This document shows, piece after piece, positions 7,280-62,540 of a DNA stretch of 64,000 nt (position 1 is its first letter; the number at the start of each line of letters is the position of its first letter). The stretch is from Petrotoga sp. 9PWA.NaAc.5.4 (lineage in GTDB: Bacteria; Thermotogota; Thermotogae; Petrotogales; Petrotogaceae). The stretch covers positions 62,001 through 126,000 of the forward strand of contig NZ_AZRK01000009.1 of the NCBI RefSeq assembly GCF_002895485.1. Reading direction: 5' to 3'. A program made the position numbers and the translations under genes. Under the pieces are notes generated by a model that worked only from the letters and a program-made list of their open reading frames with translations, was not told the origin of the DNA and searched no databases.

Positions 7280-7785
7280 TCACTTTAGAAATTATAAAAC
7301 TCAGATTCTATAAATGTTTTCACGCTTTACTTTTTCAAAATAACTTCTCAATTCTAATCATTACAAAACAGGAATTTCTTTAACTTCTTCGATACTCGTA
7401 CCGAGAAAGAAAAGAGAAGGCTTCGCCCTGAGCCCATTTTAAATTCAAAAGCTTATTTTTAGAAAACTCTCATTTCTAAAGTCCCTATCTATTACTTGCT
7501 AACCATGAATTTCTTTAACTTCTTCAGTACTCGTACCGAAAAAGAAGAGAGAGGACTTCGCCCTGAACCCATTTTAAATTCAAAAACTTATTTTTAGAAA
7601 ACTTTCATTTCTAAAGTCCCTATCTATTACTTGCTAACTATGATTTTTTTTAACTTCTTTGCTACGTTTAGTAAAGGATATGTTACGCCCTCTCAAACTT
7701 TCAGTCTGACAGACTTTCAACGAGGGGAATAAGGCTTCTTCTCGAACCTGTTTAAAATTCAAACCCTCATTTTTAGAAAATAGGG
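7280..7785 (-). repeat. Triple copy of the dispersed intergenic element upstream of hisS
   Basis: The 620-base gap between hisS and the S1-protein gene is mostly this array. Read leftwards towards hisS there are three heads and one tail. The junction GGGACTTTAGAAAT recurs near 7485 and 7620, a 135-base period. Heads carry the GGGC/GCCC hairpin (CAGGGCGAAGCC) and the CGGTAC...GTATCG or GTACTG hairpin. The tail ends ATAATTTCTAAAGTGAG. The third, outermost copy has about 55 extra bases near 7685-7735 with an inverted repeat AGTCTGACAGACT, and a decayed end. Confidence 0.85.
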
Positions 7786-7850
7786 TGTTTAATATATAAA
7801 AAGTAAAAAATAAAGCAATATATCTCGATGCCTTCTAAAAAGTATTTTAC

Positions 7851-7885
7851 CACAAAAATTTAGAGGGAGCGATAGCTCCCTCTAA
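7851..7885 (-). terminator. Rho-independent terminator of the S1-domain gene
   Basis: A perfect 11-bp stem TTAGAGGGAGC / GCTCCCTCTAA with a 4-base loop is followed, in the leftward direction, by ATTTTTG. It lies just beyond the stop of the S1-domain gene and separates it from the repeat array in front of hisS. Confidence 0.85.
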
Positions 7886-7904
7886 TTTCTATATTTTTTA
7901 TATT

Positions 7905-8279
7905 TTATCTTTTTCTTATATTGCGTTTTTTATCAAGATGTTTCCTATACTCAGAAATCTTTTTATCACTATCTTTTAGGTATTGGCTTAATCTTTTTTC
8001 GAAAGATTCAGATTTGATTTCAGAGTCTTGTTCTTCTACAGAAATATCTTTAAGTGACAATTCATACTTTCCATCTTTTGTTTTACCGATAACTTTACCT
8101 TCAACTTCCTGTCCCACTTCAAGAAATTCACTTATTTCTTTAACATATTTTTTAGATATTTTTGAAATATGCACAAAACCTTCTTCTTTATTTTCTAATT
8201 CAAGATAAGCTCCAAACTTTTTAATGTCAACTACTTTACCTTTAACGAAATCTCCCACAGATATACTTTCATTAACCAC
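7905..8279 (-). CDS. S1 RNA-binding domain protein
   Basis: This small protein (124 aa) consists of one S1 domain, residues ~5-75 (VGDFVKGKVVDIKKFGAYLE, EGFVHISKIS, GQEVEGKVIG, KYELSLKDI), followed by a highly charged Lys/Glu-rich tail ending in KKRNIRKR. Single-S1 proteins of this kind (YabR/GSP13-like) bind RNA or the ribosome; the precise role is unknown. The start is GTG 8279 behind GAGGT. It is downstream of rpmE with a 250-base gap of potential RNA structure, so it may be translated from the rpmE transcript. Confidence 0.85.
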   Translation of the reverse strand: MVNESISVGDFVKGKVVDIKKFGAYLELENKEEGFVHISKISKKYVKEISEFLEVGQEVEGKVIGKTKDGKYELSLKDISVEEQDSEIKSESFEKRLSQYLKDSDKKISEYRKHLDKKRNIRKR

Positions 8280-8289
8280 AGTTTATACC

Positions 8290-8450
8290 TCGCCCGTTTT
8301 TTTTTATTACGAAAACCTTGTTAAGCCGTAATATCCTTTTTATTTTTCATAAAAAGTATTTTGGACCTGGCGATGGTCTTCACCTCCACAAATTTTATCT
8401 ATTTTCGATTGATTAACGACATAAAATGTCGCCAACAAGGATCAATCGAA
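8290..8450 (-). other. Possible structured RNA leader between rpmE and the S1-domain gene
   Basis: The 252-base gap between these genes lacks the dispersed element and holds four stems in a row. CGATTGAT/ATCAATCG (8406-8413, 8441-8448) encloses CGACAT/ATGTCG (8417-8422, 8426-8431). GACC/GGTC is at 8364-8378, CTTTTTAT/ATAAAAAG at 8336-8356, and ATTACG/CGTAAT at 8306-8332. The 7-base CCTTGTT at 8316-8322 matches AACAAGG at 8434-8440, both in presumed loop or unpaired positions, so a long-range contact is possible. AT-rich DNA makes some of this likely by chance. Confidence 0.35.
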
Positions 8451-8533
8451 CAAAGCTTTTTAACTTTTTAACTGAATTTACCTATTATTTAGCTTTCTGA
8501 TAAATCCCCCCTACATAATATAATTTATAATGT

Positions 8534-8749
8534 TTAATTTTGCAAAAAATCTTTATATTTATTCTTAAACTTCTGAACTCTTCCTTCAGTGTCCAAAATT
8601 TGTGAACCCAATTCACCTTTATAGAATGGATGACATTCAGAACATACATCTAATCTAAAATTATCTATAGTTGAATACAGTGTATGTTCCGCACCACATG
8701 CACACTTAACAGTTATAAGTTTCATTTCTGGATGTATACCCGACTTCAC
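8534..8749 (-). CDS. rpmE: 50S ribosomal protein L31
   Basis: This is ribosomal protein L31, zinc-type, 71 aa: [20 protein letters not shown] followed by [12 protein letters not shown], giving the CxC...CxxC zinc set. The frame is open from ATG 8782, but the promoter -10 box ends only 4 bases before that ATG, which would therefore not be transcribed. GTG 8749 lies about 6 nt after AAAGAGGTG and gives the family's normal length and N-terminus (VKSGIHPEM), so I choose it. The gene has its own strong promoter and leads into the S1-domain gene. Confidence 0.93.
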
Positions 8750-8785
8750 TCCTAACACCTCTTTATTGTTAAATCTTTTCATTTA

Positions 8786-8815
8786 ATTATATCATAGTTG
8801 ATATAAATATGTCAA
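8786..8815 (-). promoter_or_regulatory. Sigma-70 promoter of rpmE
   Basis: Read leftwards: TTGACA at 8815-8810, an 18-base spacer, TATAAT at 8791-8786. Both hexamers are perfect. Transcription should start near 8779, which decides the rpmE start codon. Confidence 0.9.
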
Positions 8816-8828
8816 ATATAGTCATTTT

Positions 8829-9839
8829 TTAGAATTTACCAAGCTTTTTAAGTTTTTGAGAAATTTCTCTAACTTTTTGAGCCTTTTCTTCGGCTGCTAT
8901 TAATATACCGTTTTCACTTTCTACCACTATAATATTTGATAAACCTATGACACCAACGAACTTATCTGATTTGACAAAAACATTTTCACCATCTATAACT
9001 TCAACATTAAGATCTTTGTCACTGTACCCTGTTAATTCCCTTATTGATACCCAGTTTCCAACATCCGACCATATAAAGTTTGACTTGACCACAAAAACAT
9101 TTTTCGATTTTTCCATAAGGGCATAATCTATACTTATTTTCTCAACCTTAGGCATAACTTTTTTTAAATGAGAAAAATCTTTTGGATCAACATTTATAAG
9201 TTCTTTATATATTTCTGGAGCATATAAATTTATTTCTTTCAAAAAAGTATTCTTTTTCCACACGAACATGCCGCTATTCCAAAAAAAATTTCCTTTTTCT
9301 AAAAAACTTTTAGCTGTTTCTAAATTAGGTTTTTCGTGAAATGAAACGACCTTATAAATATTAGATTCTATATTTTCGCCAGCTTCAATATAACCGAAAC
9401 CAGTTTCAGGTCTTGTTGGATTAATTCCTATTGTAAATAAACCCTCATATTTTTCAGCGCCAACTATTGCGATATCTAAAGTTTCCCAAAAATCTTTTTT
9501 ACTTGGTATGTAATGGTCTGCAGGAAGTATGATTAAAGTTTCATTATTTTCAGCTAACTTTGTGCCGAGCATACAAGCTGGAGCGGTATTTTTTGGAATT
9601 GGTTCTAATATGATATTATCTTTGGGAAGTTCCGGAAGTTCTTTTAATGTCAGATCAAAATAATTTTCTGATGTAATTACATATATATCGTTTATATTCA
9701 TTTTATAAGTCAATCTCTCAAAGGTTTCCCTGATTAAACTTTTATCTGAAAAAAGTTTTAAAAATTGTTTTGGTTTTTCAGAACTTGATAAAGGCCAAAA
9801 TCTCTCTCCCGAACCACCTGCAAGAATTATGGCTTTCAT
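8829..9839 (-). CDS. manC: Mannose-1-phosphate guanylyltransferase
   Basis: The enzyme makes GDP-mannose from GTP and mannose-1-phosphate, feeding polysaccharide synthesis. Its 336 aa cover the nucleotidyltransferase domain (AGGSGERFWPLS at the N-terminus, EKPKQFL, LPADHYI near 105, FWNSGMFVWK near 205) plus a short C-terminal region. The phosphomannose isomerase domain of long ManC proteins is absent, as usual in Thermotogota and Firmicutes. The start is ATG 9839, behind TGGAGGTAAAA; the ATG 12 nt upstream is inside the ribosome site. It lies downstream of glgB across a divergent copy of the dispersed element. Confidence 0.92.
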   Translation of the reverse strand: MKAIILAGGSGERFWPLSSSEKPKQFLKLFSDKSLIRETFERLTYKMNINDIYVITSENYFDLTLKELPELPKDNIILEPIPKNTAPACMLGTKLAENNETLIILPADHYIPSKKDFWETLDIAIVGAEKYEGLFTIGINPTRPETGFGYIEAGENIESNIYKVVSFHEKPNLETAKSFLEKGNFFWNSGMFVWKKNTFLKEINLYAPEIYKELINVDPKDFSHLKKVMPKVEKISIDYALMEKSKNVFVVKSNFIWSDVGNWVSIRELTGYSDKDLNVEVIDGENVFVKSDKFVGVIGLSNIIVVESENGILIAAEEKAQKVREISQKLKKLGKF

Positions 9840-9865
9840 TTTTACCTCCATTTTCTTATAATTAT

Positions 9866-10130
9866 TTACTTGCTGCAGAAATTATAAAATCTACATTTTA
9901 TAAATGTTTTAAAACTTAGTTTTTTCAAAAAGACATCCACTATTCTAATTTTAAATAATTGTCTATTTTTTAATTTCTTCACCACCAAAATCAATGGTAT
10001 GCTGCACCATAAAAGATTTTTAACTTAACACGTCTTTGGTCATCGCAATGAAATCCCTTTCTGAACTCACTATAAATCAAAATCTTATTTCTCAAAAATC
10101 TTTATTTATAAAGTATCTATCTTATAATTA
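9866..10130 (-). repeat. Dispersed intergenic element flanked by an 11-bp direct repeat
   Basis: A divergent 265-base copy facing manC. CTTATAATTAT occurs at 9855-9865 and again at 10131-10141, immediately outside the element, as expected for a target-site duplication. The tail keeps a 20-codon TTG frame (9928-9866) beginning MKKLSFKTFIKC. The hairpins are decayed. Between it and the glgB stop (10142-10201) I see only a tandem AATATACTATT pair near 10173-10194. Confidence 0.8.
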
Positions 10131-10201
10131 TAATATAGATCTTTTAAAATTTTAAAGCTTAAATTTCTGAGACTAATAGTATATTAATAGTATATTACAT
10201 A

Positions 10202-12413: not shown

Positions 12414-12510
12414 TATAATAATATCTTTAAAAATTCTAAAACTTAAACGCACCGGGTTTAATATAAATTCAAACGCTTACTTTTAAAAATTATTCGTTTC
12501 TAAATTATCT
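12414..12510 (-). repeat. Internally deleted copy of the dispersed element
   Basis: Only 97 bases, but both ends are present: the head start TTTAGAAACGAATAA and the tail end GAATTTTTAAAGATA, joined near ACCCGGTGCG. The 8-mer GAATTTAA lies on both sides (12406-12413 and 12511-12518). The outer copy forms the last codons of dprA, whose TAA stop directly adjoins the element. Confidence 0.7.
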
Positions 12511-13500: not shown

Positions 13501-13529
13501 CTTTTAAGTCTCCTTTATTTGGTAAAATA

Positions 13530-13613
13530 CTATCTTTAGAAATTTTAAGATCTCTGTCGGACCTATTTTAAATTCAGATGCTCATTTTCTGAAAATTATA
13601 ATTTCTAAAGTCC
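13530..13613 (-). repeat. Short element remnant with both ends
   Basis: This 84-base copy begins GGGACTTTAGAAATTA and ends TTAAAATTTCTAAAGATAGTA, with the hairpin core lost. Its first bases supply the TAG stop of the upstream methyltransferase gene (13605-13607). I see no clear flanking direct repeat. Confidence 0.65.
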
Positions 13614-16474: not shown

Positions 16475-16830
16475 AGTATTTTAGCAAAAAGAATTTTTAG
16501 GAAATAAGTTTTTGAATTTAAAAGCGGGTCCAGGGCGGAGCCCTTCTTCCCTCTTTCGGTACAAGTAGCGAAAAAATTAAAGGAATTCATATTTTGTAAA
16601 GATTAGAATTGAGGATTAGATAGAGATTTTGGAAATGAGAAGTTTTTAAAAATAAGCTTTTGAATTTAAAAGCGGGTCCAGGGCGGAGCCCTTCTCCATT
16701 TCTTTTGGTAAAAATAACGAAAAAGTTAAAGGATTTCATATTTTGTAAAGATTAGAATTGAGGAAGTATTTTTGAAAAAACTAAGATTCAAAAAATTATA
16801 GAATCTGATTTTCGGAATTTTTAAAGTGAG
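16475..16830 (+). repeat. Double copy of the dispersed element facing the epimerase gene
   Basis: The 670-base divergent gap between hflK and the epimerase holds two heads (boundary near 16625) and one tail, all oriented rightwards. Both heads contain GGGTCCAGGGCGGAGCCC; the first has CTTTCGGTACAAGTAGCG. The tail ends GGAATTTTTAAAGTGAG, 28 nt before the epimerase ATG. The remaining 16257-16474 holds an extended -10-like TGTTATAAT near 16324 and nothing else I can support. Confidence 0.85.
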
Positions 16831-16857
16831 TAAAAGTTTAGAATTTGGGAGGTATTT

Positions 16858-17799
16858 ATGGAAGAAAAAATAAAATACAAAATACTTGTTACAGGCGGAG
16901 CAGGATTCATAGGTTCTAACCTTGTAGATAAACTGATAGAAATTGGTCATACTGTAGTTGTGGTAGATAATCTTTCAACAGGGAATGCAGATTTTTTATC
17001 ACCGTTAGCTTTATTTTATCAACAGGATATTCGAGATTATAAGGTTTTAGATATGATTTTTGAATCACATAAATTTGATTATGTTTTTCATTTGGCGGCA
17101 CAAATTTCTGTTCCTGATTCTGTTAAAAATCCTAATAAAGACGCAGAAATTAACATAATGGGCACTTTAAATTTATTGGAACTTTGTTTAAAGTATGGGG
17201 TCAAGAAACTTATTTTTTCTTCTACAGGTGGTGCAATATACGGGGATAATGCACCAATACCAACAAGTGAAGAATATTGCCCACATCCTATGAGTCCTTA
17301 CGCTATTTCAAAATTGGCGAGTGAACATTATATAAGATTTTTTTCAGATCAATATTCATTGAACTATTCAATTTTGAGATATTCAAACGTTTATGGACCT
17401 AAGCAAACTCCTAAAGGGGAAGCAGGTGTAGTAGCTATTTTTACTGAAAAAATGTTAAACAATGAAGAAACATATATTTATGGAGATGGAGAGCAAGTTA
17501 GAGATTTTATACATGTATACGATGTTGTTGAAGCGAATATCTTATCTTTGCAGAAAGGTGATAAAGAAGTTATTAACATTTCTACAAATTCAAAAACCAC
17601 AATAAATGAACTTTTTAATATTATGAAGAAAGAAACAGAATATAATAAATTTCCCATTTATAAACCCCAAAGAGCCGGAGATATAAATGTTAGTTTGCTT
17701 TCAAACGATAAGGCAAAAATAGTTTTAGGTTGGTATCCAAAGTTAAAACTTCAAGAAGGAGTGAAGAACACTATTGACTGGTACAGAACCTCTATATGA
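16858..17799 (+). CDS. NDP-sugar epimerase/dehydratase (GalE-like SDR)
   Basis: A 313 aa extended short-chain dehydrogenase acting on a nucleotide sugar, probably a UDP-glucose 4-epimerase. The NAD loop VTGGAGFIGSNLVDKL is at residues 11-26, DNLSTGN follows the second strand, the catalytic Ser/Thr is in FSSTGGAIYGDN, and the Tyr/Lys pair is in SPYAISKLASEHY. YGDGEQVRDFIHVYDVV near 205 is typical of the family. The C-terminus is a little shorter than E. coli GalE. The start is ATG 16858 behind GGGAGG. Its last 26 nt overlap the start of rarA. Exact substrate not determined. Confidence 0.85.
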   Translation: MEEKIKYKILVTGGAGFIGSNLVDKLIEIGHTVVVVDNLSTGNADFLSPLALFYQQDIRDYKVLDMIFESHKFDYVFHLAAQISVPDSVKNPNKDAEINIMGTLNLLELCLKYGVKKLIFSSTGGAIYGDNAPIPTSEEYCPHPMSPYAISKLASEHYIRFFSDQYSLNYSILRYSNVYGPKQTPKGEAGVVAIFTEKMLNNEETYIYGDGEQVRDFIHVYDVVEANILSLQKGDKEVINISTNSKTTINELFNIMKKETEYNKFPIYKPQRAGDINVSLLSNDKAKIVLGWYPKLKLQEGVKNTIDWYRTSI

Positions 17800-23347: not shown

Positions 23348-23475
23348 AAATTAGAGATAAGATGATTTATAAATAATATAAAATAAAAATGAAGATTTTT
23401 TAAAAATTTAAATCTAAAAGGCAGATAAAAGTTAGGCTGTAGAATTTTGAAAGACAGTAATTTTTTAAAATAAAT

Positions 23476-24032
23476 GATTTAGAAATTAAGATCTTTTGGG
23501 TAATAATTTTTAGAATTTAAAGTGGATTTAGTGTAAAGTCTTCTATCTATTTTCCATGCAAGTAGCGAAAAAGTTAAAGAAATTCATATTTTGTGAGGAT
23601 TAAAATTGATGATGTATTTTTGAAAAAACTAAATGTCAAAAAATTTGTAGAATCTGAGTTTCATAATTTTTAAAGTGAGTAAAAAAGTATAAATAGGTAC
23701 TTTAGAAATGACAACTTTCTAAAAACAAGCTTTTGAATTTATAACGGGTTCAGGGCCGAGCTCTCTCCTCTCTTCTTAGCTCCATGTAGCGAAAAAGTTA
23801 AAGAAATTCATATTTTGCAAGGATTAGATAAGAACTTTAGAAATGAGAATTTTTAAAAAATAAGATTTTGAATTTACAATGGGTTCAGGGCGGAGCCCTC
23901 TTCCCCACATTCGGTACAAGTACCGAAAAGTTAAAGAAATTCATATTTTGTGAGGATTAAAATTGATGATATATTTTTGAAAAAACTAAACGTCAAAAAA
24001 TTTGTAGAATCTTTCATAATTTTTAAAGTGAG
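23476..24032 (+). repeat. Three-copy array of the dispersed element upstream of permease genes
   Basis: This fills most of the 770-base gap before the permease gene. Copy 1 (23476-23680) and copy 3 (23834-24032) each have head and tail; copy 2 (23699-23830) is head only. The two tails (from GTTAAAGAAATTCATATT to AAAGTGAGTAAAAAAGTAT) are nearly identical, implying recent duplication. Copy 3 has perfect AGGGC/GCCCT and TTCGGTAC/GTACCGAA hairpins. Copy 1 holds a 17-codon TTG frame (23620-23673). 23348-23475 holds nothing I can identify. Confidence 0.85.
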
Positions 24033-24064
24033 TAAAAAAGTATGAAGGTAAGGAGGTACTTATT

Positions 24065-27016: not shown

Positions 27017-27085
27017 GACACTTTAGAAAGGAAGAAGTTTGAAAAATAAGGTTTTAAATTTGTAATTAGGTTGAAGAGGTGTTTT
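27017..27085 (+). repeat. Decayed dispersed element in a 5' leader
   Basis: GACACTTTAGAAAGGAAGAAG..., then AATAAGGTTTTAAATTTG and TTAGGTTGAAGAGG match the head but the hairpin arms are lost. It lies downstream of the promoter at 26867-26896 and in the orientation of the binding-protein gene, so it should be transcribed. Confidence 0.5.
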
Positions 27086-30787: not shown

Positions 30788-32175
30788 AAAAAAATAAATC
30801 AATTAATGGTCCACTTAGAGATTTTTGGAATGAATTTAAGCAATATAAGTATGGTGTTGTAGGAATTATTTTTCTCATAGTTTTTATTATTCTAGTGGTT
30901 TTTGAAAGATTTTTGGTTCCTTTCCCAGAAGCATCAAGTAGATGGAGAGATATTACCTACTGGGAAGATAATCCAAGAAGTGTGCCTCCTGTTTGGATTA
31001 ATTTCTTCACTTCAAAAGATTATACACCTACCGTCTACTTTGAAGATTTAGAATTTGCAGAAAATCAGCTTGCTCCAACTATAACGGCAATGAATTATGT
31101 TTTAGAATATGAATATGATTACGATATTCCTCCTGTTGATATGATTTTGAGAGGTAGATATCAAGGTAACTTTACTGCTAACATCGTTGTCGAAAGACCT
31201 GATGGAACTACTGTAAATTTAGTGAATAAAAATTTTACTGCACCTACTATGAGAGATTTTCGTATTTCTTTGGTCAATGAAGCACAAAACAGTGTAAGAA
31301 ATTTTGCAAGAAGATATCAACCCAATGTTCCACAAAATATTAGTATTTTTAGCATTTTATTTTCACAAGCCAACGAAAATATTATATCAAGTCCTCAGCC
31401 TTTAAAGGGGACATATAAATTTAATATAAACTTGATTAAAACTTCTTCCAATACTGTTATTGAAGAACCTATATTTATTGTTTCTGGCAGTGCTTCTGGT
31501 TTATTAGGAACAGATAACTCTAAAAGAGATATTTGGAGTGGTTTAGTTGCTGGACTAAAGTGGGCTTTGTTTATAGGACTTTTTACTTCTGCCATTTCTG
31601 TAGGAGTTGGAGTGATTTATGGTGTTGTATCTGCTTATTATGGAGGTATAGTCGATTCGATTATGCAAAGAATATGGGAAGTATTTATAAATATTCCATT
31701 GTTACCGGTTTTAATTGTGTTATCCGCTATATTCCAACCGAGCATTTGGACATTGATAATTATGATGTGTTTGTTTTTCTGGGTTGGACCTGTTAAGACC
31801 GTTAGAAGTATGGCTTTGCAAATAAAAGAAGAGACATTCGTAGAAGCTGCAAAAGCTTTAGGAGCCTCTAATTCACGAATAATTTTTAGACATATAGTTC
31901 CTATGCTTATACCTTATGCTTTTGCAAGTATGGCATTAAATGTACCGAGTGCTATAGTATACGAAGCTACAGTTAGTTTGTTAGGATTGGGTGATGCTTC
32001 AATAGTAACATGGGGTCAGATTCTACATGATGCTTTTAGCGGTGGTGCTGTTATAAGTGGTTATTGGTGGTGGATAGTCCCGCCAGGAATAGCGATTGCC
32101 CTTGTTGGAATGACTTTCGCATTTTTAGGTTTTGCGATGGATACTATCCTAAATCCAAAATTAAGAACGAGGTAG
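30784..32175 (+). CDS. Opp/Dpp-type ABC transporter permease (OppC-like) with extracytoplasmic insert
   Basis: At 463 aa it is longer than the ~300 aa norm. Span 1 is near 22-44 (YGVVGIIFLIVFIILVVF). About 190 residues without membrane spans follow (they include RPDGTTVNLVNKNFTAP, a beta-rich section). Then GTDNSKRDIWSGLVAGLKWALFIG starts the conserved core, with coupling loop EETFVEAAKALGASNSRIIFRH. The GTG start overlaps the previous stop (GTGA). It shares the insertion habit of the other OppC-like permease but the inserted sequence looks unrelated. Confidence 0.92.
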   Translation: MKKNKSINGPLRDFWNEFKQYKYGVVGIIFLIVFIILVVFERFLVPFPEASSRWRDITYWEDNPRSVPPVWINFFTSKDYTPTVYFEDLEFAENQLAPTITAMNYVLEYEYDYDIPPVDMILRGRYQGNFTANIVVERPDGTTVNLVNKNFTAPTMRDFRISLVNEAQNSVRNFARRYQPNVPQNISIFSILFSQANENIISSPQPLKGTYKFNINLIKTSSNTVIEEPIFIVSGSASGLLGTDNSKRDIWSGLVAGLKWALFIGLFTSAISVGVGVIYGVVSAYYGGIVDSIMQRIWEVFINIPLLPVLIVLSAIFQPSIWTLIIMMCLFFWVGPVKTVRSMALQIKEETFVEAAKALGASNSRIIFRHIVPMLIPYAFASMALNVPSAIVYEATVSLLGLGDASIVTWGQILHDAFSGGAVISGYWWWIVPPGIAIALVGMTFAFLGFAMDTILNPKLRTR

Positions 32176-34186: not shown

Positions 34187-34190
34187 GAAT

Positions 34191-34229
34191 AAAAATATCC
34201 CCACGATTACTAATCGTGGGGATATTTTT
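34191..34229. terminator. Bidirectional terminator between convergent genes
   Basis: AAAAATATCCCCACGATTA and TAATCGTGGGGATATTTTT form a near-perfect palindrome with A/T runs on both sides. It ends both the Opp operon and the Nudix gene, whose TAA stop lies at its edge. Confidence 0.93.
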
Positions 34230-35342: not shown

Positions 35343-35372
35343 CTAAAAAACCTCCTTAGCACATTTTGATTA

Positions 35373-35869
35373 CTTACTTTAGAAATTTTAAAACTTAGTT
35401 TTTCAAAAATACCTCCTAAACTCTAATCCTAACAGAATATGAATTTCTTTAATTTTTTCGCTATGTGTAGCTAAGAAGAGAGGGGAGGGCTCTGCCCTGG
35501 ACCCGCTATAAATTCAAAATTCTATTTTTAGAAAATTCTCATTTCTAAAGTCCCTGCTTCTTTTCTAATAATTCTAAGTTCTAATCCTTACTAATCCCTA
35601 ATTTTTTTTACCTTTTTCGGTACTTGTACCGAAGGAAGGGGGAGAGGGCTCTGCCCTGGACCCGCTATAAATTCAAAATTCTATTTTTAGAAAATTCTCA
35701 TTTCTAAAGTCCCTGCTTTTTTTCTAATAATTCTAAGTTCTAATCCTTACTAATCCCTAATTTTTTACCTTTTTCGGTACTTGTACCGAAGGAAGGGGGA
35801 GAGGGCTCCGCCCTGACCCCATTATAAATTCAAGATGTTATTTTCTAAAAAATATCATTTCTAAAGTCC
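35373..35869 (-). repeat. Tandem three-copy array of the dispersed element upstream of hslV
   Basis: The 560-base gap between ddl and hslV. Three heads and one tail point at hslV. Boundaries (CAGGGACTTTAGAAATGAG) recur at about 35555 and 35714, a 159-base period, and copies 2 and 3 are almost identical. Each head has AGGGC/GCCCT and a second hairpin, TTCGGTAC/GTACCGAA in two copies and TAGCTA...TAGCG in the one nearest hslV. The tail has GGAGGTATTTTTG but is shortened. Confidence 0.88.
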
Positions 35870-41968: not shown

Positions 41969-41997
41969 TTTCTTCCCTCCCAAATTTATTTCTATAC

Positions 41998-42158
41998 TGC
42001 CTTCAAAATTTCCAAAACCTCTATTTTACATATGCTTTAAGTTAAATTTACAAAATGTTCCCTTAATTCTGATTTTTATAAATCGTCTATTTCTTTGACT
42101 TTTCTGATACTTGTAACCAATGAGAAAGTATTACTTTAACATTTTTATCTCTTAAATT
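41998..42158 (-). repeat. Decayed dispersed element upstream of glgP
   Basis: The end facing glgP reads TTTGGAAATTTTGAAGGCAG (tail) and the far end TTTAAGAGATAAAAATG (head). The central hairpins are reduced to TTGGTTACAAGTATCAG-like remnants. It lies between the unknown 242 aa gene and glgP. Confidence 0.5.
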
Positions 42159-44776: not shown

Positions 44777-45709
44777 TCATTCTTTCCATAATAAATCAAA
44801 TTTTCTATTTATGGCTTTTGAAATTCCTTTATTTTTAATTATTAAAACTATCTCGTCATTTTTTTCTCTTGCTCTATAAGTTAAATTATAGCTTCCTATA
44901 ATAAAAGTTTCTTCGTCTATAATTAAAGCCTTAGCATGAATATCGTTTCTATATTTTAATTCTACTCCCAATATAAATTTTAAAGGAGATTCATATATCC
45001 TATTCCAATCATCAGATAAAATTCTTATCTTTACATTTTTTGAAGACATCTTTTCTAAAATCTCAACAAAATATGGATCGGTAAAAGAATATGCGATTAC
45101 ATTTACAAATTCCTTTGCTTTTTTAATTTCTTTTAATATTTCATTATAGATCTTTTCAGATGGCCCTGTTATAATTCTTACATTTCCTAATTCTGTACCC
45201 ATAAGATTGACATTAATTTGTTCTTTATTAATTCCGAATTTGCCTTTTTTAAAATTATTTAATTCTTTAAGAAAAACTTTTACGATTTCTTTTTCTTCAG
45301 TATAGATAAAAATATTAAAATCTTTCATTAAGCCACTTTCTGTAAAATTACCTGTTCCAAACAACACAGATTGATCATCAAAAACTATAAACTTTTCATG
45401 TAGATAACCGTCTCGATTTTTGTCATATTTTATTGACAAATCATAATTTCCAGAATAACCGCCTTCGTATTCTAAAAATATTTCGTAGTTAGTTTTTAAA
45501 ATCTCTTCAGATATAGTATCGTCTAAACTAAAAGAAACCAACCTTATGCTTTTAGAACTTTCAATCTTTTTTTTCAGAAAGAAAGTTAATTCTTCTCCTG
45601 AAAAAAATAGTTGGTAGGAATAAATAAGGTTGGTCAAAAGTAAGAAAAACAAAATAAAGATCAAACTTTTTTTATTAAAAATTTCTTTTAACATTTCAAT
45701 ATTTTTCAC
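44777..45709 (-). CDS. Phospholipase D-like (HKD) protein, probably secreted or anchored
   Basis: A 310 aa protein with an N-terminal hydrophobic segment ([16 protein letters not shown]) and two HKD half-sites: [20 protein letters not shown] near 103 and [20 protein letters not shown] near 263. Both H, K and D residues are kept, so it should be an active phosphodiesterase; the family includes phospholipases, cardiolipin synthases and nucleases of the Nuc/mitoPLD type. The size and GTGNFT/GSYNLT pattern resemble the endonuclease-like branch. The GTG start overlaps the sat stop (GTGA). Substrate not known. Confidence 0.82.
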
Positions 45710-46860
45710 TTTTTCATGTAATATTCCATGAGTATCTCAGCGACTTCTGGTCTTGTAAACTCTTTTGGAGGTTTTTCTCCTTTTGAAAGCATTTCTCTTA
45801 CTGTGGTTCCACTTAAAAAGACATGATCTTCATTACCATGAGGACAAGTTTTTGCAGTTGCCATATTTTCACATTTTTTACAGTAAAAAGAGTTCTCAAA
45901 TTTTAAAGGAACTATCTCGATCTCTTCTGGTTTAAATTGATCAAATATTTCTTGAGCTTCGTATGTACCATAATAATTTCCGACTCCGGCATGATCCCTT
46001 CCTACAATAAAATGAGTGCACCCATAATTCTTCCTACATATTGCGTGAAAAACAGCCTCTTTAGGTCCTGCGTATCTCATATTTACAGGAAATACACCCA
46101 AACACACCCTTTCCTTGGGGTAATATTTATCAAGGATAACTTCATAAGATTTCATTCTAACATCAGATGGAATATCCTCATTTTTTGTCTTTCCAACTAA
46201 TGGGTTTATGAATAATCCGTCTACAATTTCAAGAGCAGTTTTTTGTAAATATTCATGTGCTCTATGTATAGGATTTCTCGTTTGAAAAGCTACAATAGTT
46301 CTCCATCCTTTTTCTGAAAATATTCTTCTTGTATCAACAGGATCGAATCTGTATTGTTTAAAATCTTCATGTTCAATCCTGTTTAGTAGAGTGACATTTC
46401 CTCCCAAAGCGATATTTCCTTGTTCGTATAAAAAATGTACTCCAGGATGTTTTTCTTCAGTAGTTTTGTAAACATTCAAAGCCTCTTTTTGTTTTGTTCT
46501 TTCGAATTTATCTGTGAGATGTAGTACAGCATATACTTTTCTATCTTCTTCAGACTTTACTATTATATCTTCTCCTATATTTAATTCATTAGCAACTTCT
46601 TTATTGACTGATAAAACAATAGGTATCGGCCATACAATTCCATTCGCTAATCTCATGTTTTCCAAAACAGAATCATAGTCTTTTTTACTCATGAATCCTT
46701 CTAACGGACTAAATAAGCCAGTAGCAATATTTTCTAACTCGGTTAGATCAAAGTAAGAAACAGTTATCGACTTTAGCTCTTTTGATTTTCTTATCCAATA
46801 TTCTTTCTCATCCTGAGAAGCAATTCTGCTTATTAACTTTCCACCGTGTGGCTTGATCAT
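45706..46860 (-). CDS. sat: Sulfate adenylyltransferase (ATP sulfurylase)
   Basis: Sat makes adenosine 5'-phosphosulfate from ATP and sulfate (or the reverse). The 384 aa have [14 protein letters not shown] near 52, the ATP site [15 protein letters not shown] near 190, [12 protein letters not shown] near 285, and a zinc-type [16 protein letters not shown] near 345, all usual for the homo-oligomeric bacterial and archaeal form. No APS kinase, APS reductase or sulfate transporter gene is near; instead it is coupled to the PLD-like gene. AGGAGG precedes the ATG. Confidence 0.95.
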
Positions 46861-46888
46861 TAAAAAACCTCCTATTATAAGATTTGTA

Positions 46889-47229
46889 TGCTCACTTTAG
46901 AAATTACAAAACCTAAGTTTTGCCAATCTTTTAGTTTTAAATTTTTTCAAAATACCTCCATAACTCTAATACTTACTAACTATGAGTTCCTTTAACTTCT
47001 TCGCTACGTTTAGCGAAAGAGAGGGGGAGGGCTCCGCCCTGGACCCGTTGTAAATTCAAAATCTTACTTTTAGAAAATTCTCATTTCTAAAGTTCTTATC
47101 TAATCCTTGCAAAATATGAATTTCTTTAGTTTTTCGGTACTTGTACCGAAAGAAGGGGGGGAAGGCTCCGCCCTGGACCCGTTGTAAATTCAAAATCTTA
47201 TTTTTAAAAAATTCTCATTTCTAAAGTCC
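46889..47229 (-). repeat. Two-copy dispersed element with a 13-bp target-site duplication
   Basis: The 400-base gap between the MBL hydrolase and sat. TATAAGATTTGTA occurs at 46876-46888 and 47230-47242, exactly flanking the element. Inside, facing sat, are two heads (boundary near 47096) and one tail. Both heads have GGGTCCAGGGCGGAGCC; the second hairpin is TTCGGTAC/GTACCGAA in one and TTCGCTA/TAGCGAA in the other, a compensated G-C to C-G swap. The tail holds a 17-codon TTG frame (46950-46897) reading MKKFKTKRLAKLRFCNF behind GGAGG. Confidence 0.9.
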
Positions 47230-47264
47230 TATAAGATTTGTACTTTCATAGTTTAATAATTATA

Positions 47265-49619: not shown

Positions 49620-49649
49620 GATAAAAACCCCCTTTTATTTTTTGATGAA

Positions 49650-49847
49650 CTTGCTTTAGAAATTCTGAAATTCAGATTCTATAAATATTTTTAGTTTTAA
49701 CTTTTCAAAAATATCTCCATGATTCTAATCATATTAATCATAAATTTCTTTAGCTTTTTCGCTATGTGTAACGAGAGAGGCAAAAAAGAATTATATCTTG
49801 AATCTGTTATAAATTCAAACGCTTATTTTTAAAATCTCTATTTAAGT
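49650..49847 (-). repeat. Dispersed element in the pepF leader
   Basis: One head and one tail facing pepF, ending CAGAATTTCTAAAGCAAG 30 nt before the start codon. The tail has GGAGATATTTTTG, but its frame is broken by a one-base loss. It lies wholly downstream of the -10 at 49866-49871, so it is transcribed with pepF. Confidence 0.8.
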
Positions 49848-49865
49848 AAAATAATTGTTTTTAGA

Positions 49866-49874
49866 ATTATAGCA
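49866..49874 (-). promoter_or_regulatory. Extended -10 promoter of pepF
   Basis: Read leftwards, TGCTATAAT: a perfect extended -10 with TATAAT at 49871-49866. A clear -35 is lacking. Start of transcription near 49859. Confidence 0.65.
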
Positions 49875-49945
49875 TATATAATTTTAAATTAGTTTGTTTT
49901 GCATATTATACTTTAGTATTTTACCGTTTTTGATTTATAATATTT

Positions 49946-50093
49946 TAGATACTTCAAAAATAAGGATTTTGGAAAAACGATGCTTTGAATTTAATTAGGT
50001 TTGGATAAGCCCCTTCCTTATTTGTAAAAGTAGTCAATAGGTTAGAGAAAATCAGTTATTCAAAAATAAATTTTAAAATTTCCAAATAAGATA
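49946..50093 (+). repeat. Decayed dispersed element with an 11-bp target-site duplication
   Basis: TTATAATATTT occurs at 49935-49945 and 50094-50104, directly flanking a 148-base copy that points towards the kinase gene. Head start GATACTTCAAAAATAAGG, TTTGAATTTAATTAGG; end AAAATTTCCAAATAAGATA. Hairpins are decayed. The downstream flanking repeat contains the TATAAT (50095-50100) that is the best -10 for the kinase gene. Confidence 0.7.
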
Positions 50094-50100
50094 TTATAAT
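50072..50100 (+). promoter_or_regulatory. Probable promoter of the xylulokinase-like gene
   Basis: TATAAT at 50095-50100 with a weak TTTAAA 17 bases upstream. The -10 is part of the element's flanking direct repeat. Confidence 0.5.
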
Positions 50101-50131
50101 ATTTCAAATAATTGCGAAAAGAGATGATATT

Positions 50132-53970: not shown

Positions 53971-54180
53971 TACCTACTTTAGAAATGAGAATTTCTAAAA
54001 ATAAGTTTTTGAATTCGAAATGGATTCAAGGCGAAGCTCCACCATCTTCCTTGGTGCAAGTACCAAAAATGTTAAAAAAATTAAGAATTAGTGAAGATTA
54101 GAAGCGGGAAAATATTTTGCAAAAAAATCAAATCTAAAACATGTATATAATAAGGATTTTGGAATTTCTGAAGGTAGTAA
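53971..54180 (+). repeat. Dispersed element with a 9-bp target-site duplication
   Basis: AAAATATTA occurs at 53962-53970 and 54181-54189, directly flanking this 210-base copy. It faces the binding-protein gene. Its ends are TACCTACTTTAGAAATGAG and GGAATTTCTGAAGGTAGTAA. The second hairpin reads CTTGGTGC AA GTACCAA, where the usual C-G pair is replaced by T-A on both arms. Confidence 0.85.
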
Positions 54181-57286: not shown

Positions 57287-58186
57287 ATGCTTGGAGGAAT
57301 AGTTCCGGCAATGTTAACTCCTTTTAACAAAAAAGGAGAAATTGACGAAAAAGTAATAAAAGATTATTTGAATTTTGTTGAAGAAAAAAAAGTAAATGGT
57401 TTATTTATTGGAGGTACAACAGGAGAGGGAATATTATTAGAAAAGGAAGAAAAAAGGAAGCTCTTTGAAATAGTTCAAAAGTATGGAGGAGATATGCTTA
57501 ATATTGTAGCTCATTGTGGTTCTAATAATTTAATTCAAGCAAGAGAATTGATAGAATATGCTAAATATTATGAAATAGATACTGTTGGAGTGGTTGTACC
57601 TTTTTTTAATCATTATAGTCAGAAAGAAATATTTAATTTCTACAACCAATTAGCGAATGATTTTAGTGATATAGATTTATTTGTTTATAACATTCCTTCT
57701 TCGGCGAGAAATGAAATTGATATTGAAACAATGAAGGAATTATTTGCAGCTAATTCAAATATAAGAGGAATAAAAGATAGTTCAGGTAGTTTAGAAAAAA
57801 TTATTGATTTTGTTAATATATCAGAAAAAATAATCGTTATGGTAGGGGCAGATAGAATATTAATTTACGCATTAATATCAGGAGCAAAAGGAACGGTTTC
57901 AGGGCCAGCTGCAATATTTCCTGAACTATTTGTTAGATTAGTAGAAGAATATAATAATGGGCAAATAAAAGAAGCATTGGAAACACAAAATATTTTAGTA
58001 AAATTTTCTGAAGCAGTGGGATGGGGATACAGTATTCCGACTCTTAAAGCAGCAATGAAAATAAGAGGATTTGACTTCGGAGCGCCAAGGCCTCCATTTA
58101 ACCAACTTTCAGAAAGAGAAGAAAAAGACTTAAAATTGAGATTAGAAAAATTATGTAATGATTATAGTGTTCCTTTGAGAATTTAG
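57287..58186 (+). CDS. DapA/NanA-family aldolase or dehydratase
   Basis: A 299 aa class I aldolase-fold enzyme (dihydrodipicolinate synthase superfamily). PAMLTPFNKKGEIDE at the N-terminus, GGTTGEG near 42, the catalytic Tyr in YNIPSSA near 133 and the Schiff-base Lys in GIKDSSGS near 163. In a sugar operon such proteins are usually 2-keto-3-deoxy-sugar-acid aldolases or N-acetylneuraminate lyases rather than lysine-pathway enzymes. The presence of an Asp-box protein next door hints at sialic-acid-like substrates, but no other sialic-acid gene is present. Confidence 0.85.
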   Translation: MLGGIVPAMLTPFNKKGEIDEKVIKDYLNFVEEKKVNGLFIGGTTGEGILLEKEEKRKLFEIVQKYGGDMLNIVAHCGSNNLIQARELIEYAKYYEIDTVGVVVPFFNHYSQKEIFNFYNQLANDFSDIDLFVYNIPSSARNEIDIETMKELFAANSNIRGIKDSSGSLEKIIDFVNISEKIIVMVGADRILIYALISGAKGTVSGPAAIFPELFVRLVEEYNNGQIKEALETQNILVKFSEAVGWGYSIPTLKAAMKIRGFDFGAPRPPFNQLSEREEKDLKLRLEKLCNDYSVPLRI

Positions 58187-58209
58187 AAAACACAACAGGA
58201 GGTAATCAT

Positions 58210-59625
58210 ATGCAGAAAAGAAAAGTTGGTATAATCACATTTTCAGATGGAAGGGACTTTGTTCATGAAGAAACATTAGAGATGAACAAAAAATTTGAGG
58301 ATAGGTTAGTAAAAGCTTTGGAGAATACTGGGGAAATTGAAGTTGTTAGAGCTTCAGAGATAGTAAATAAACCCTCAAAAGCCAAAAAAGCCGGTAAAGA
58401 AATGATGAAAGCAGAAGTCGAGATGACAATTTTTAATTATTCTATATGGTGTTGGCCACATTTAAGTGTAATCTCTTCACTCTATGCACCAGGACCTTAT
58501 TTGACTTATGGTCAAATTAATCCTAAATATCCAGGAATGGTAGGACTTTTGGCTGCAGCTGGAGCATTAGAGCAAGTAGGAATATTTCCAGAAAGAGTTT
58601 GGGGAGAACCTGAAGACATAAAAGTAATAGAAAAATTACTGAAATTCGTTCGTGCAGCAAGTGCAGCATACAGGTTAAAAGGTGAAAGGTATGGAATGTT
58701 TGGTGGTAGACCTATGGGTATGTATACAGCATCTGCAAATGGAGACCAATGGATGAAAGAGTTTGGTATAGATGTTGAACAAATAGATCAATATGCACTT
58801 GTTTTAAAAGCTGAAAAAGTACCTGCTGAAAAGAAAAGAAAAGCTAGAGAATGGCTCGAAAAGTTATCAAATGTACAGTATGATGGTAAAAGATTAACTC
58901 CTGAAATTTTAGAAAAGCAAATAGGATTGTATTATGCGGCTTTAGAAATAATAAAAGAAGAAGAACTTGATTTTGTAGGATTTAAAGGTCAGCCGGAAAT
59001 GACAAACAATTATGCTACTATGGATATTGTAGAAGCCTTTTTAAACGATCCTTATGATTTTGATGGGCCAAAAGAGCCAATAGTTGCTGCAACCGAAACC
59101 GATATGGATGGAGCATTAACTATGGAGATATTCAAACATATAGCTCAGACTCCAGTATTATTCGCGGATGTTAGACATTACTTTAAGGTAGAAAATTTAC
59201 TTGATTTAGCAAATTCTGGACAGCACGCAACATATTTTGCTGGAAAATCTATGAAGCCTGAAGAAAATTTAAAGAACGTAATTATACATCCGGAAGACTT
59301 TTATTTTCCTGCCGGTGGTGGGGCAGTTAAACATTTTGCAGCACCTGGTAGAGTAACTCTTGCAAGATTAGCAAGGCAAGCTGGTCATTATGTCATGACT
59401 ATAGTTCCTGCTGAATTTGTAGAATTAAGCGATGAAGAAAAGAAAAGACTCAGTGAACAAGTACAAATTGAATGGCCTCATGCTTATGCAAAATTAGATA
59501 CAGATATGGAAACATTTTTAGAATATTATCCATGTAACCATACACATGGAGTTTATGGTAATTATGTTGATGAACTTATTAATTTCTGTAAGATAAAAGG
59601 CATTGATTATCAGATTTTGGATTAG
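58210..59625 (+). CDS. L-fucose/L-arabinose isomerase-family protein
   Basis: A 471 aa protein related to L-fucose isomerase. The N-terminal domain starts VGIITFSDGRDFVHEE; FNYSIWCWPHLSVIS near 78, RYGMFGGRPMGMYTAS near 160, and FVGFKGQPEMTNNYATMDI near 255 mark the family, with ATETDMDGALTMEIFKHI near 297 carrying likely metal ligands (Glu, Asp) and a His further on (VKHFAAPGRVTLARL). Family members interconvert aldoses and ketoses using Mn2+. The aldose acted on cannot be told; the FGGY kinase two genes on would take the ketose product. Confidence 0.82.
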   Translation: MQKRKVGIITFSDGRDFVHEETLEMNKKFEDRLVKALENTGEIEVVRASEIVNKPSKAKKAGKEMMKAEVEMTIFNYSIWCWPHLSVISSLYAPGPYLTYGQINPKYPGMVGLLAAAGALEQVGIFPERVWGEPEDIKVIEKLLKFVRAASAAYRLKGERYGMFGGRPMGMYTASANGDQWMKEFGIDVEQIDQYALVLKAEKVPAEKKRKAREWLEKLSNVQYDGKRLTPEILEKQIGLYYAALEIIKEEELDFVGFKGQPEMTNNYATMDIVEAFLNDPYDFDGPKEPIVAATETDMDGALTMEIFKHIAQTPVLFADVRHYFKVENLLDLANSGQHATYFAGKSMKPEENLKNVIIHPEDFYFPAGGGAVKHFAAPGRVTLARLARQAGHYVMTIVPAEFVELSDEEKKRLSEQVQIEWPHAYAKLDTDMETFLEYYPCNHTHGVYGNYVDELINFCKIKGIDYQILD

Positions 59626-59665
59626 GATATTAAAATGTTCGAAGAAATAAAATAAGGGGTGAAAA

Positions 59666-60661
59666 ATGGAAATTGTAAACAAATCTTTTATTTTTGAAAA
59701 TATCCCAAATAAAATTAGTTCGCATTCTGTTAGTTTATGTAAAGTTAGCAATACTGAGATATTGGCTTTTTGGTTTTCTGGTACTTGGGAAGGAGAAAAA
59801 GATGTAGATATTTTTTTCTCAAGATATAACATTATCAAAGATAAGTGGAGTAAACCGAAAATATTGATTCATGATCCATTTAGATCGCTTGGCAATACAA
59901 TTCCTATTGTTTTTGACGAAACGCTTAGGTTATATTACTGTGCCATGGAAGGAAAAGATTGGACAGAGTCATCATTATGGTATATTGAATCTTATGATAA
60001 AGGGTTTACTTGGAGCAAATCAAGAGCATTTTCTCCTCATGAAGATAGTCTTTTATTTGGAACGAAAATTCTTCCATTAGAAGATGGAAGATATGTTTTT
60101 CCACTTTACAACGAAAAATTATGGGTAAGTACACCTTATATTACAAGCAACATATTAGCAAACGAATGGCAAAAGATTGGAGAAATAAGAACTGAAAAAG
60201 GTAACATTCAACAAGATATGGTTGAATTGAATAAACATATCTTTTCTTTGCTTAGAACAAGAGATGGTTTTGTTTATAAAACTATATATGATTTTGAGAG
60301 TGGTCAATGGACTGAACCTGTTTCCATAGGTATACCAAATCCTAATTCAAGAATAGCTTTAGAGAAAATAAGTAATATTCTGATTTGTTGTTGTAATCCG
60401 ATTGGTCTTAATAAAGAAAATCTTACTACTGATCCAAGAAAATTATCTAATATTGAAGAAAGTTTTTGGGGAAAAAGGGAAAAGCTTTCTATATTTGTTT
60501 CAAGCGATGAGGGAAACACTTGGAATGAAGAAATAATTTTAGAAGAAAGTAAAGATAAAGAATACTCTTATCCATGGTTCCAGATAATTGATGAAACAAA
60601 AATAATGACTGCATATACGTATGAAAGGCAAAAAATTGCCTATGCAATAATCAAAATTTAA
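59666..60661 (+). CDS. Cytoplasmic Asp-box (sialidase-fold) protein
   Basis: A 331 aa six-bladed beta-propeller-type protein. Two clear Asp boxes of the S-x-D-x-G-x-T-W type are present: SYDKGFTWSKS near 111 and SSDEGNTWNEE near 275; a weaker one is near 50 (FFSRYNIIKDKWSKP). The family (BNR_2, sialidase superfamily) includes exo-sialidases and other glycosidases. There is no signal peptide, so it should act on a substrate already imported. No firm catalytic assignment is possible; it may be a glycoside hydrolase for the disaccharide brought in by the CUT1 system. Confidence 0.75.
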   Translation: MEIVNKSFIFENIPNKISSHSVSLCKVSNTEILAFWFSGTWEGEKDVDIFFSRYNIIKDKWSKPKILIHDPFRSLGNTIPIVFDETLRLYYCAMEGKDWTESSLWYIESYDKGFTWSKSRAFSPHEDSLLFGTKILPLEDGRYVFPLYNEKLWVSTPYITSNILANEWQKIGEIRTEKGNIQQDMVELNKHIFSLLRTRDGFVYKTIYDFESGQWTEPVSIGIPNPNSRIALEKISNILICCCNPIGLNKENLTTDPRKLSNIEESFWGKREKLSIFVSSDEGNTWNEEIILEESKDKEYSYPWFQIIDETKIMTAYTYERQKIAYAIIKI

Positions 60662-60679
60662 TACATAGGAGCGGTAAAT

Positions 60680-62200
60680 ATGTATTTAATTGGGATAGAT
60701 ATAGGAACTCAAAGCACTAAAGCAGTGATTACCGATGAAAATGGGGTAGTAATTGTAGAATCTTTAAAAGAGTATTCTGTATTAACTCCACAACCCAATT
60801 GGGCAGAGCAATGGCCTGATGTATGGTTTAATGCAGTAATAGATACACTTAAAAAAGTTTTAGAAAAATCTCAAATTCTACCCAAAGATATAGCAGGAGT
60901 TGCAATAAGTGGACTATATGGAGGATCTGGTATCCCTGTTGACAAGGAATTTAAGCCATTAAGACCGTGCCTGATTTGGATGGATAGAAGGGCGACAAAT
61001 GAAACAGATTGGGTTAAAAAGAATGTTCCTAAGGAAACTATATTTGGAATAACTGGGAATTATGTGGATAGTTATTTTGGTTTTACTAAAATGATGTGGC
61101 TAAAAAATAATGAGTCAGATATTTGGGAAAAAACGTATAAATTTGTAACACCTAAAGACTATGTAATATACAAATTAACAGGTGTTAACGCTATAGATTA
61201 CTCTTCTGCTGGAAATATCGGAGGTATTTTTGATATTCATAAAAAGTATTGGTCAAAGGAAATGTGTAAAATTTTGGGGATAGATATAGATAAATTGCCA
61301 GAAAACATTGTTAAATCATCAGATATTGTAGGTAAAATATCTAGAAAATATGCACAAGAAACAGGTCTCTTAGAAGGTACGCCTATAATAGCAGGGGGAA
61401 TTGATGCTCCAGTCGCACAGTTGAGTGCTGGATCAGTTTTTGAAGGAGAACATGTTGCTATGATCGGAACTTCCACTTGTTGGGGGAATATCCACGATGG
61501 AAAGTACCTCACGCCGGAATTAGTTAGCTATCCATATGTTGTAGATGATTTGGAAAAGATATATACTTTTGGTGGTGGAGCTACATCTGGAGCTATAGTT
61601 AGATGGTTCAGAGATGAATTTGGTAGTTATGAGAAAGAAATCGAAGATAAAACTGGGATCTCAGCGTACACACTTCTCGAATTGCAAGTTAAAGATATAC
61701 CAGCGAGTAGTGAAGGATTAATCGTTCTTCCATATTTTATGGGAGAAAGGTCTCCAATATGGGATTCCCATGCTAAAGGAACTATAGTTGGCTTAAGTTT
61801 ATATCACAAAAAAAAGCATATTTATAAAGCGTTTATGGAAGCGGTAGCTTATTCTTTAAGGCATAACATAGAAGAAGCCGAAAAAACTGGAATGAAGTTG
61901 AATGATGAATGTTATCTTGTAGGTGGAGTTGCAAAAAGTGATATATGGACACAAATTTTTGCGGATGTAACGGGGTATAATATGAAAAGAGCAAAACAAT
62001 CAGTAGAAGCCCCTTTGGGGGATGCCTTTTTAGTTGGGTTAGCAACTAAAATCTTTGAAAAACCTGAAAGCATTAAAAAATGGGTTCAATTTAAAGAAGA
62101 TGTTTTACCTAATAGTTCAAACAAACAAATTTACGATAAATATTTCAATATATACAAGCAGTTATATAAAAGTACAAAGGAAATTATGGAACAATTATAA
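60680..62200 (+). CDS. FGGY-family carbohydrate kinase
   Basis: A 506 aa sugar kinase, last gene of the operon. YLIGIDIGTQSTKAVITDE at the start, VAISGLYGGSGIPVD near 74 (LYGGSG instead of the QMHG of xylulokinases), CLIWMDRRATNE near 97, MIGTSTCWGN near 262, and YFMGERSPIWDSHAKGTIVGL near 355, with GGVAKSDIWTQIFADVTG in the C-terminal half. Sequence motifs differ from the kinase at 50132, so the two are not recent duplicates and probably act on different ketoses. Substrate open. Confidence 0.88.
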   Translation: MYLIGIDIGTQSTKAVITDENGVVIVESLKEYSVLTPQPNWAEQWPDVWFNAVIDTLKKVLEKSQILPKDIAGVAISGLYGGSGIPVDKEFKPLRPCLIWMDRRATNETDWVKKNVPKETIFGITGNYVDSYFGFTKMMWLKNNESDIWEKTYKFVTPKDYVIYKLTGVNAIDYSSAGNIGGIFDIHKKYWSKEMCKILGIDIDKLPENIVKSSDIVGKISRKYAQETGLLEGTPIIAGGIDAPVAQLSAGSVFEGEHVAMIGTSTCWGNIHDGKYLTPELVSYPYVVDDLEKIYTFGGGATSGAIVRWFRDEFGSYEKEIEDKTGISAYTLLELQVKDIPASSEGLIVLPYFMGERSPIWDSHAKGTIVGLSLYHKKKHIYKAFMEAVAYSLRHNIEEAEKTGMKLNDECYLVGGVAKSDIWTQIFADVTGYNMKRAKQSVEAPLGDAFLVGLATKIFEKPESIKKWVQFKEDVLPNSSNKQIYDKYFNIYKQLYKSTKEIMEQL

Positions 62201-62246
62201 GTAAATTATAAAAGTAAGAAATTAAATAATTAATAATCGAAAATAC

Positions 62247-62270
62247 AAGGGCTGGATTCAGCCCTTTTTT
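62247..62270 (+). terminator. Terminator of the sugar operon
   Basis: AAGGGCTG / CAGCCCTT with GATT loop and six T. Strong. Confidence 0.93.
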
Positions 62271-62325
62271 GATATACAGGAATGTATTTAAGAGTTTTAT
62301 TATATATTTTTATAAATTTAAAATT

Positions 62326-62353
62326 TTGAAACTTGTGTTTTTTGTTGTATAAT
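62326..62353 (+). promoter_or_regulatory. Promoter of glnA
   Basis: TTGAAA at 62326-62331, 16-base spacer, TATAAT at 62348-62353. It gives a ~210-base leader containing a dispersed-element copy. Confidence 0.7.
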
Positions 62354-62424
62354 CACAATTAATTGATAATAAACCATGGTATTTACATGTAATCAGCAAT
62401 AATGAAATATTTTTCTTTCTTATA

Positions 62425-62540
62425 GACGCTTTAGAAAGGGGGGTGAAAAATAGCTCAAAATTAGAATTGTAGAGGTATTTTTTAAAAAGTTAAATACTAG
62501 AATATTTATAAAATATGAATTTTATAATTTCAAAGTGAGT
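62425..62540 (+). repeat. Decayed dispersed element in the glnA leader
   Basis: Head start GACGCTTTAGAAAGG, tail TAGAGGTATTTTTT..., end ATAATTTCAAAGTGAGT, oriented towards glnA. The tail's TTG has become TTA, so no short frame. It lies between the promoter and the start codon. Confidence 0.65.

Follow-up and report, generated by a model that had tools for sequence, protein, structure and literature searches.

The window considered here comprises 64,000 nucleotides (nt) of Petrotoga sp. 9PWA.NaAc.5.4, from positions 62,001 to 126,000 of contig NZ_AZRK01000009.1, and the gaps between its genes contain many copies of a short, non-coding repeat, most of which end at a nearly constant distance from the Shine-Dalgarno (SD) sequence of a gene. 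In a first-pass annotation, this family was described as dispersed, with some twenty copies, its full form consisting of a head with two hairpins followed by a tail. Repeat finding, direct reading, and models built from the window's own copies (R1 for the head and R2 for the tail) agree with this anatomy, and in the window there are 12 strong heads with an expectation value (E) below 1e-19, around 8 further heads that are degenerate, and 11 tails with E below 1e-10. All of the positions originally listed have a head or tail match except 62425 (in the numbering of the whole window, as used for positions throughout unless a contig is named), which is the start of a degenerate copy and has no match itself; the tail of this copy, whose head has shrunk, is matched at 62472..62541 on the plus strand (R2 38.8 bits). 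A scan of the window with Rfam gave no match above the gathering score.

The best-preserved copy, at 46889..47231 on the minus strand, has two heads and a tail (R1 151.3 and 146.2 bits, R2 57.2 bits), a TA end at 47231, and a tail that terminates in AGCA at 46889. A comparison of its flanks reveals the target duplication TACAAATCTTA, present distally at 47232..47242 and again on the SD-proximal side at 46878..46888, where it is followed by TAAT and then by AGGAGG at 46868..46873, the SD of gene 45706-46860 and the target motif. The same arrangement is found on the plus strand in a stack that begins with a degenerate tail from an older copy at 23395..23459 (R2 24 bits), continues with a complete copy at 23476..23681, and ends with the SD-proximal member at 23699..24034, which has two heads and a tail (R1 and R2 matches in both) and is followed by the duplication AAAAAGTATGAA, GGTA, and AGGAGG. 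A complete copy at 53976..54179 (plus; R1, R2) is likewise followed by a target duplication, a 4-nt spacer, and CGGAGG. The genes at 54141 and 62535 have longest open reading frames (ORFs) that start within the element, and SDs at around 54193 and 62556 suggest that their true starts are at around 54206 and 62569, respectively.

Further copies on the minus strand are a tail at 5915..5985 upstream of gene 5025-5903 (R2 56.9 bits), with the AGGAGG-like TGGAGG 13 nt past its end; a copy at 7277..7617, which precedes the gene at 7246 and has two tandem heads (7490-7617 and 7355-7482) and a tail (7277-7347), with an extra degenerate head at 7625-7795; a degenerate head (9998-10114) with a good tail (9867-9937) at 9867..10114; internally deleted copies at 12419..12506 (R1 39.4 bits; repeat family D8) and 13528..13611 (R1 45.3 bits, R2 16.1 bits); three tandem heads (35741-35867, 35582-35710, and 35424-35551) with a shortened tail at 35371..35867; and a degenerate head with a tail at 41995..42157 (R1 25.6 bits, R2 41.9 bits). 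On the plus strand, a copy at 16478..16832, upstream of the gene at 16858, has two heads (16478-16605 and 16626-16754) and a tail (16763-16832), and a degenerate copy lies at 27020..27068 (R1 31.1 bits, E 0.0024). The divergent gap 49620-50131 contains two copies, each directed towards its own gene: a head and tail at 49648..49847 on the minus strand (R1 76 bits, R2 53.6 bits) and a degenerate copy at 49951..50068 on the plus strand (R1 45 bits). The convergent gap at 34187-34227 has no copy. In both gaps, the first-pass annotation was right.

The scale of the family in the genome as a whole is far larger than twenty copies. There are at least 150 strong heads (the weakest among the matches listed has an E of 2e-18 with R1), and a sequence profile applied to 1.16 Mb of the genome picks out 341 heads and 170 tails; in the first 764 kb, the element makes up 3.7% of the bases and 32% of the intergenic bases. 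Five further genomes of the same bacterial family also contain heads: 149 and 74 in the two genomes of one genus (g4) and 7-13 in three genomes of the Petrotoga type (genus g3), which have merely a handful of copies. No heads were found in the remaining genomes of the bacterial family that were looked at, nor did a DNA search of phages find relatives of the element. In one of the relatives, G003, six partial heads lie in tandem with a period of around 75 nt (contig C1, around 1140810-1141250), an expansion unlike that of the 134-nt tandem heads of the window.

A complete copy with a single head is mostly 204-208 nt long (around 206 nt) and contains no transposase gene. It has an inverted repeat, TANNNACTTTAGAAAT, at each end; the start is TANNNACTTTAG, rather than GGGACTTT as first proposed, and the end is AAAGTGAGTA. 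In complete copies, direct repeats abut the TA at both ends: target duplications of 8-13 nt were called in 42% of 88 complete copies compared with 1.2% when flanks were shuffled among copies. These inverted ends and duplications, the small size, the lack of a transposase, and ends common to an autonomous element of the genome (see below) are, on the sequence, those of a miniature inverted-repeat transposable element (MITE). Between the two hairpins of the head lies a CU-rich tract, the sequence of which is variable rather than conserved and which, in a transcript, could pair with AGGAGG. The idea that the tail is a promoter, based on TATAAT-like bases near its end, was rejected because inspection showed that these bases are not conserved among copies.

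When a simple ORF caller was applied to the first 364 kb, 85 of 93 heads were confirmed to point towards the next downstream gene. On inspection, nearly all of the other eight, which had appeared to be the wrong way round because of errors of the caller, face real starts that it had missed (for example, those of cysC, mscL, and dnaX), and convergent gaps are nearly empty of copies. The sole clear wrong-way copy, on the minus strand at C1:183644, is situated in the head of an older element on the plus strand; the sequence that it faces, at the usual distance, is AAGGGAAG, a purine run resembling an SD.

This distance is the central result. Of 134 tails without another copy behind them, 124 end 12-17 nt before an AGGAGG with at most one mismatch, a position occupied by only 2.8% of random intergenic points. 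Of 29 copies measured from the edge of the duplication, 28 have a 4-nt spacer and one has a 5-nt spacer, while the length of the duplication varies from 8 to 13 nt; the exception is the window copy at 46889-47231, whose far end is missing a base and whose spacer, once this is allowed for, is also 4 nt. Since the duplications were called without reference to the SD, this 4-nt ruler is not circular. Occupancy follows the match of the SD to AGGAGG, with 47 of 119 genes occupied (40%) when all six bases match, 22 of 158 (14%) when five match, and 4 of 119 (3%) when four or fewer match (p 2e-12). By location, the occupied motifs are 51 of 193 SDs, 3 of 31 intergenic motifs that are not SDs, and none of 160 inside genes. 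Copies in genus g3 have tails that keep the 12-16-nt rule described below for the relatives of the transposase, and those in G003 mostly face AGGAGG. In the genome under study, a degenerate copy at C43:68020 ends beside a terminator-like hairpin that has AAGGAGC in its arm, at 7 nt instead of 12-17.

A gene is not needed for this rule to be obeyed. Two nested copies lie in front of an AGGAGG that is internal to another copy, at the junction of its head and tail, where no gene starts, with duplications (AGGATTAGA and AAGGATTAAA) taken from the host element and a spacer of, again, 4 nt, which argues that the motif itself is what is read. Insertion before this internal AGGAGG would give the order head, inserted head and tail, duplication, AGGAGG, tail, and both nested loci have exactly this order. 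Recombination between the two tails would then leave head-head-tail with the junction GGATTAGA-TAGGGACTTT, which is present in the tandem copies. The head is not a separate element, and nested insertion best explains its repetition. In stacks, complete copies follow one another with the same 8-12-nt spacer between them, a consequence of successive insertions before a single SD.

A search for paired ends with duplications found one locus with a gene, C2:50420-52043, an insertion sequence (IS) of 1624 bp whose ends, TACCCACTTTAGAAATGA and GAATTTCTAAAGTGACTA, match those of the MITE. It ends 14 nt before the AGGAGG of apt and has a 10-bp duplication, ATATATATAA, followed by AATT and then this AGGAGG. 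Its intact gene, the only one in the genome with a DDE_Tnp_1 domain (PF01609), encodes a transposase of 417 amino acids in which both this domain and DUF772 (PF05598) score above the cut-off. The best NCBIfam match is to IS1182 (NF033551), at 55.9 bits, far below the cut-off of 270, and a likeness to IS5 is also below the cut-off; no similar protein was found among solved structures. D141, D250, and E356, which are invariant among three aligned relatives, are read as the probable catalytic triad. From its sequence, this IS is the probable autonomous partner of the MITE.

The relatives of the transposase point the same way. Of 103 Thermotogota genomes, 13 contain them, including that of a Fervidobacterium, and a protein search of plasmids found none. 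In nearly every copy whose SD-side end is readable, an AGGAGG-like motif follows this end at 12-16 nt, as in TTACCTTCAAAA-ATAA-AGGAGG in G008 and AAATGATAATA-ATTA-GGGAGG in the Fervidobacterium, and no such motif is ever found next to the opposite end. The polarity is that of the MITE, with ...AAATTCTAAA at the SD-side end and ...AAATGA at the far end. In ten further genomes, the pattern at the SD-side end was near chance level. Two decayed relatives in the genome under study (C34:8734-9366 and C45:1343-2160) have SD-side ends 12-13 nt before AGGAG.

The explanation that very probably accounts for these observations is that the MITE is moved in trans by the small, IS5/IS1182-like DDE transposase and that its insertion is directed by AGGAGG. 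The transposition complex, through the transposase or a partner, would read this motif as DNA and cut one strand exactly 4 nt 5' of it and the other 8-13 nt further away. AGGAGG being directional and the ends of the element non-equivalent, insertion would occur in a single orientation with the tail towards the motif, and the SD and start codon would stay intact, so that many genes would offer a tolerated landing site. Since insertion would regenerate the target, further copies could stack at the same SD, and the AGGAGG at the head-tail junction would allow copies to insert into copies. The first-pass annotation had assumed that a mobile element without function should be present in both orientations and had left the choice between directed insertion and the loss of wrong-way copies. 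The assumption fails because the target itself has a direction, and, of the two, directed insertion is supported by the exact 4-nt edge, by an occupancy that tracks the match to AGGAGG, and by the nested copies at an AGGAGG without a gene. Loss is not the main cause of the orientation, since by itself it would lead neither to an exact spacing nor to the nested copies; it surely removes insertions inside genes.

Several observations weigh against this explanation or limit it. Two IS ends are around 19 nt from the motif, and a small number of tails lack an AGGAGG (such as that at C2:120411). The absence of copies from the within-gene motifs fits purging but would equally fit a requirement that the surroundings be translated or transcribed. 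In stacks, the copy nearest the SD was predicted to be the youngest, which was not supported, this copy not being measurably younger (8 of 19). No near relative provided a clean empty site, and no transposition event was observed; for the IS in G008, orthologous genes exist in five relatives, where the upstream DNA is too diverged. Finally, plain targeting does not fully explain a comparison of 288 orthologous pairs between the genome under study and G003, in which 15 have the element in G003 and 11 of these have it in both; where there is free space, co-occupancy is 11 of 13, which is above chance and which persists with strong SDs (7 of 7 when both are perfect).

This co-occupancy is one of the arguments for a different explanation, in which the element is a leader RNA recruited by the host, a two-hairpin domain of the 5' untranslated region that controls downstream translation and that, having been spread by transposition, is kept for its function. 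Copies lie between the upstream gene and the SD and so are probably transcribed, and paired changes have preserved the hairpins (changes on both sides in 83 cells versus 43 in shuffles), although the copies are related and the hairpins may equally serve transposition. Such recruitment is nevertheless unlikely as the main explanation: around 18% of eligible genes carry the element and their functions are unrelated, decay or internal deletion has affected many copies, and the genomes of genus g3 hold few. Moreover, most of the copies at co-occupied orthologues resemble each other no more than random copies do, and so seem to have been inserted separately at genes that are favoured. The copies of one pair (C15 of the genome under study around 31600-31810 and L075 of G003 around 5590-5990) are nearly identical; they precede genes that are 90% alike compared with a median of 73% and are possibly due to a recent transfer between genera. 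The data on hairpins and orthologues leave room for a putative role in expression; ERIC and Correia repeats alter transcripts (PMC3049150), so an effect on mRNA here would be unsurprising.

With directed insertion retained, another question is what reads the motif. A host factor might do so, or an RNA that pairs with AGGAGG, for example 16S rRNA through its 3' end or a transcript of the element through its CU-rich stretch: AGGAGG is the complement of the anti-Shine-Dalgarno sequence, and the head does have its CU-rich tract. This is improbable, given that the full IS, with a single protein and its own internal sequence, hits the same site and that the sequence of the tract is not conserved. 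Within this possibility, base pairing by the element's transcript or by the 16S anti-Shine-Dalgarno, instead of a contact between protein and DNA, has a still slighter chance of being how the motif is found; if it were, this would be an RNA-assisted DDE transposition aimed at translation starts. It is similarly doubtful that another, unseen enzyme moves the element and that the IS is a passenger with equal ends; the genome does have other transposases (genes with rve domains), but the IS gene is intact, its ends, duplication length, spacer, and polarity match those of the MITE, it is the only PF01609 gene in the genome, and relatives or relics of the transposase occur in the other genomes with the MITE. 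Lastly, random or AT-biased insertion followed by selection for SD-facing copies, on the grounds that others harm expression, would be in keeping with the unoccupied within-gene motifs and nearly empty convergent gaps, and purging certainly acts, but this very unlikely alternative is already contradicted in that it would not set an edge exactly 4 nt from AGGAGG while the duplication varies, nor give nested and wrong-way copies their distance where there is no gene, nor give the IS an equal spacing in several genera.

Transposons must land without killing their host, and for this family, the ribosome-binding site appears to be the solution. Targeting of this kind explains both an orientation bias that would otherwise resemble regulation and how one repeat can fill a third of the intergenic DNA sampled from a compact genome. 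It also provides a natural test case in which a single small DDE enzyme, an asymmetric 6-bp site, and a 4-nt ruler are combined; if the enzyme works outside its host, it might be a tool for placing DNA before coding starts with the genes unbroken.

The literature searched, which did not extend to subscription journals, contains no description of a transposable element that targets Shine-Dalgarno sequences. The first-pass claim that no described element of this form was known stands for this literature, but the parts, a MITE with an IS that mobilizes it, are of a known kind. Nezha, with its resident IS, and BOX, for which ISSpn2 is the proposed mobilizer, are likewise short, AT-rich, and non-coding, exist in hundreds of copies, and have hairpins, target duplications, and inverted ends shared with an IS; BOX even has tandem middle modules. 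BOX, however, has a distribution in line with the coding bias, with over-representation in gaps between convergent genes (PMC3049150), whereas here both the orientation and the distance to the SD are fixed. REP and BIME, with their RAYT, are also palindromic repeats found in hundreds of intergenic copies and moved by a small resident transposase. RAYTs are Y1 enzymes and are not known to make duplications; here, the transposase is of the DDE type, the ends are inverted, the target is duplicated, and the position before the SD is fixed. Tn7 at glmS and Ty3 at tRNA genes are examples of directed, orientation-specific insertion beside an unbroken gene; the first uses one gene and the second the RNA polymerase III machinery, and the target here is a translation start signal at many genes. 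Among site-choosing elements, an IS of the IS1202 family (ISAjo2; the pdif/dif hunters) is found with a single orientation and a constant distance of 5 bp from a short recognized site (PMC10132070), but that site binds XerC, and the duplications are 5 bp, the transposase TnsB-like, and the ends TGT, compared with AGGAGG, 8-13 nt, and TA ends here. The IS1182 family offers the best NCBIfam match and has the same two domains, despite the low score, and site-choosing elements are known near it: IS1272 replaces palindromes and makes no duplication (PMC5678879), while the target here is AGGAGG, at 4 nt, which is not a palindrome.

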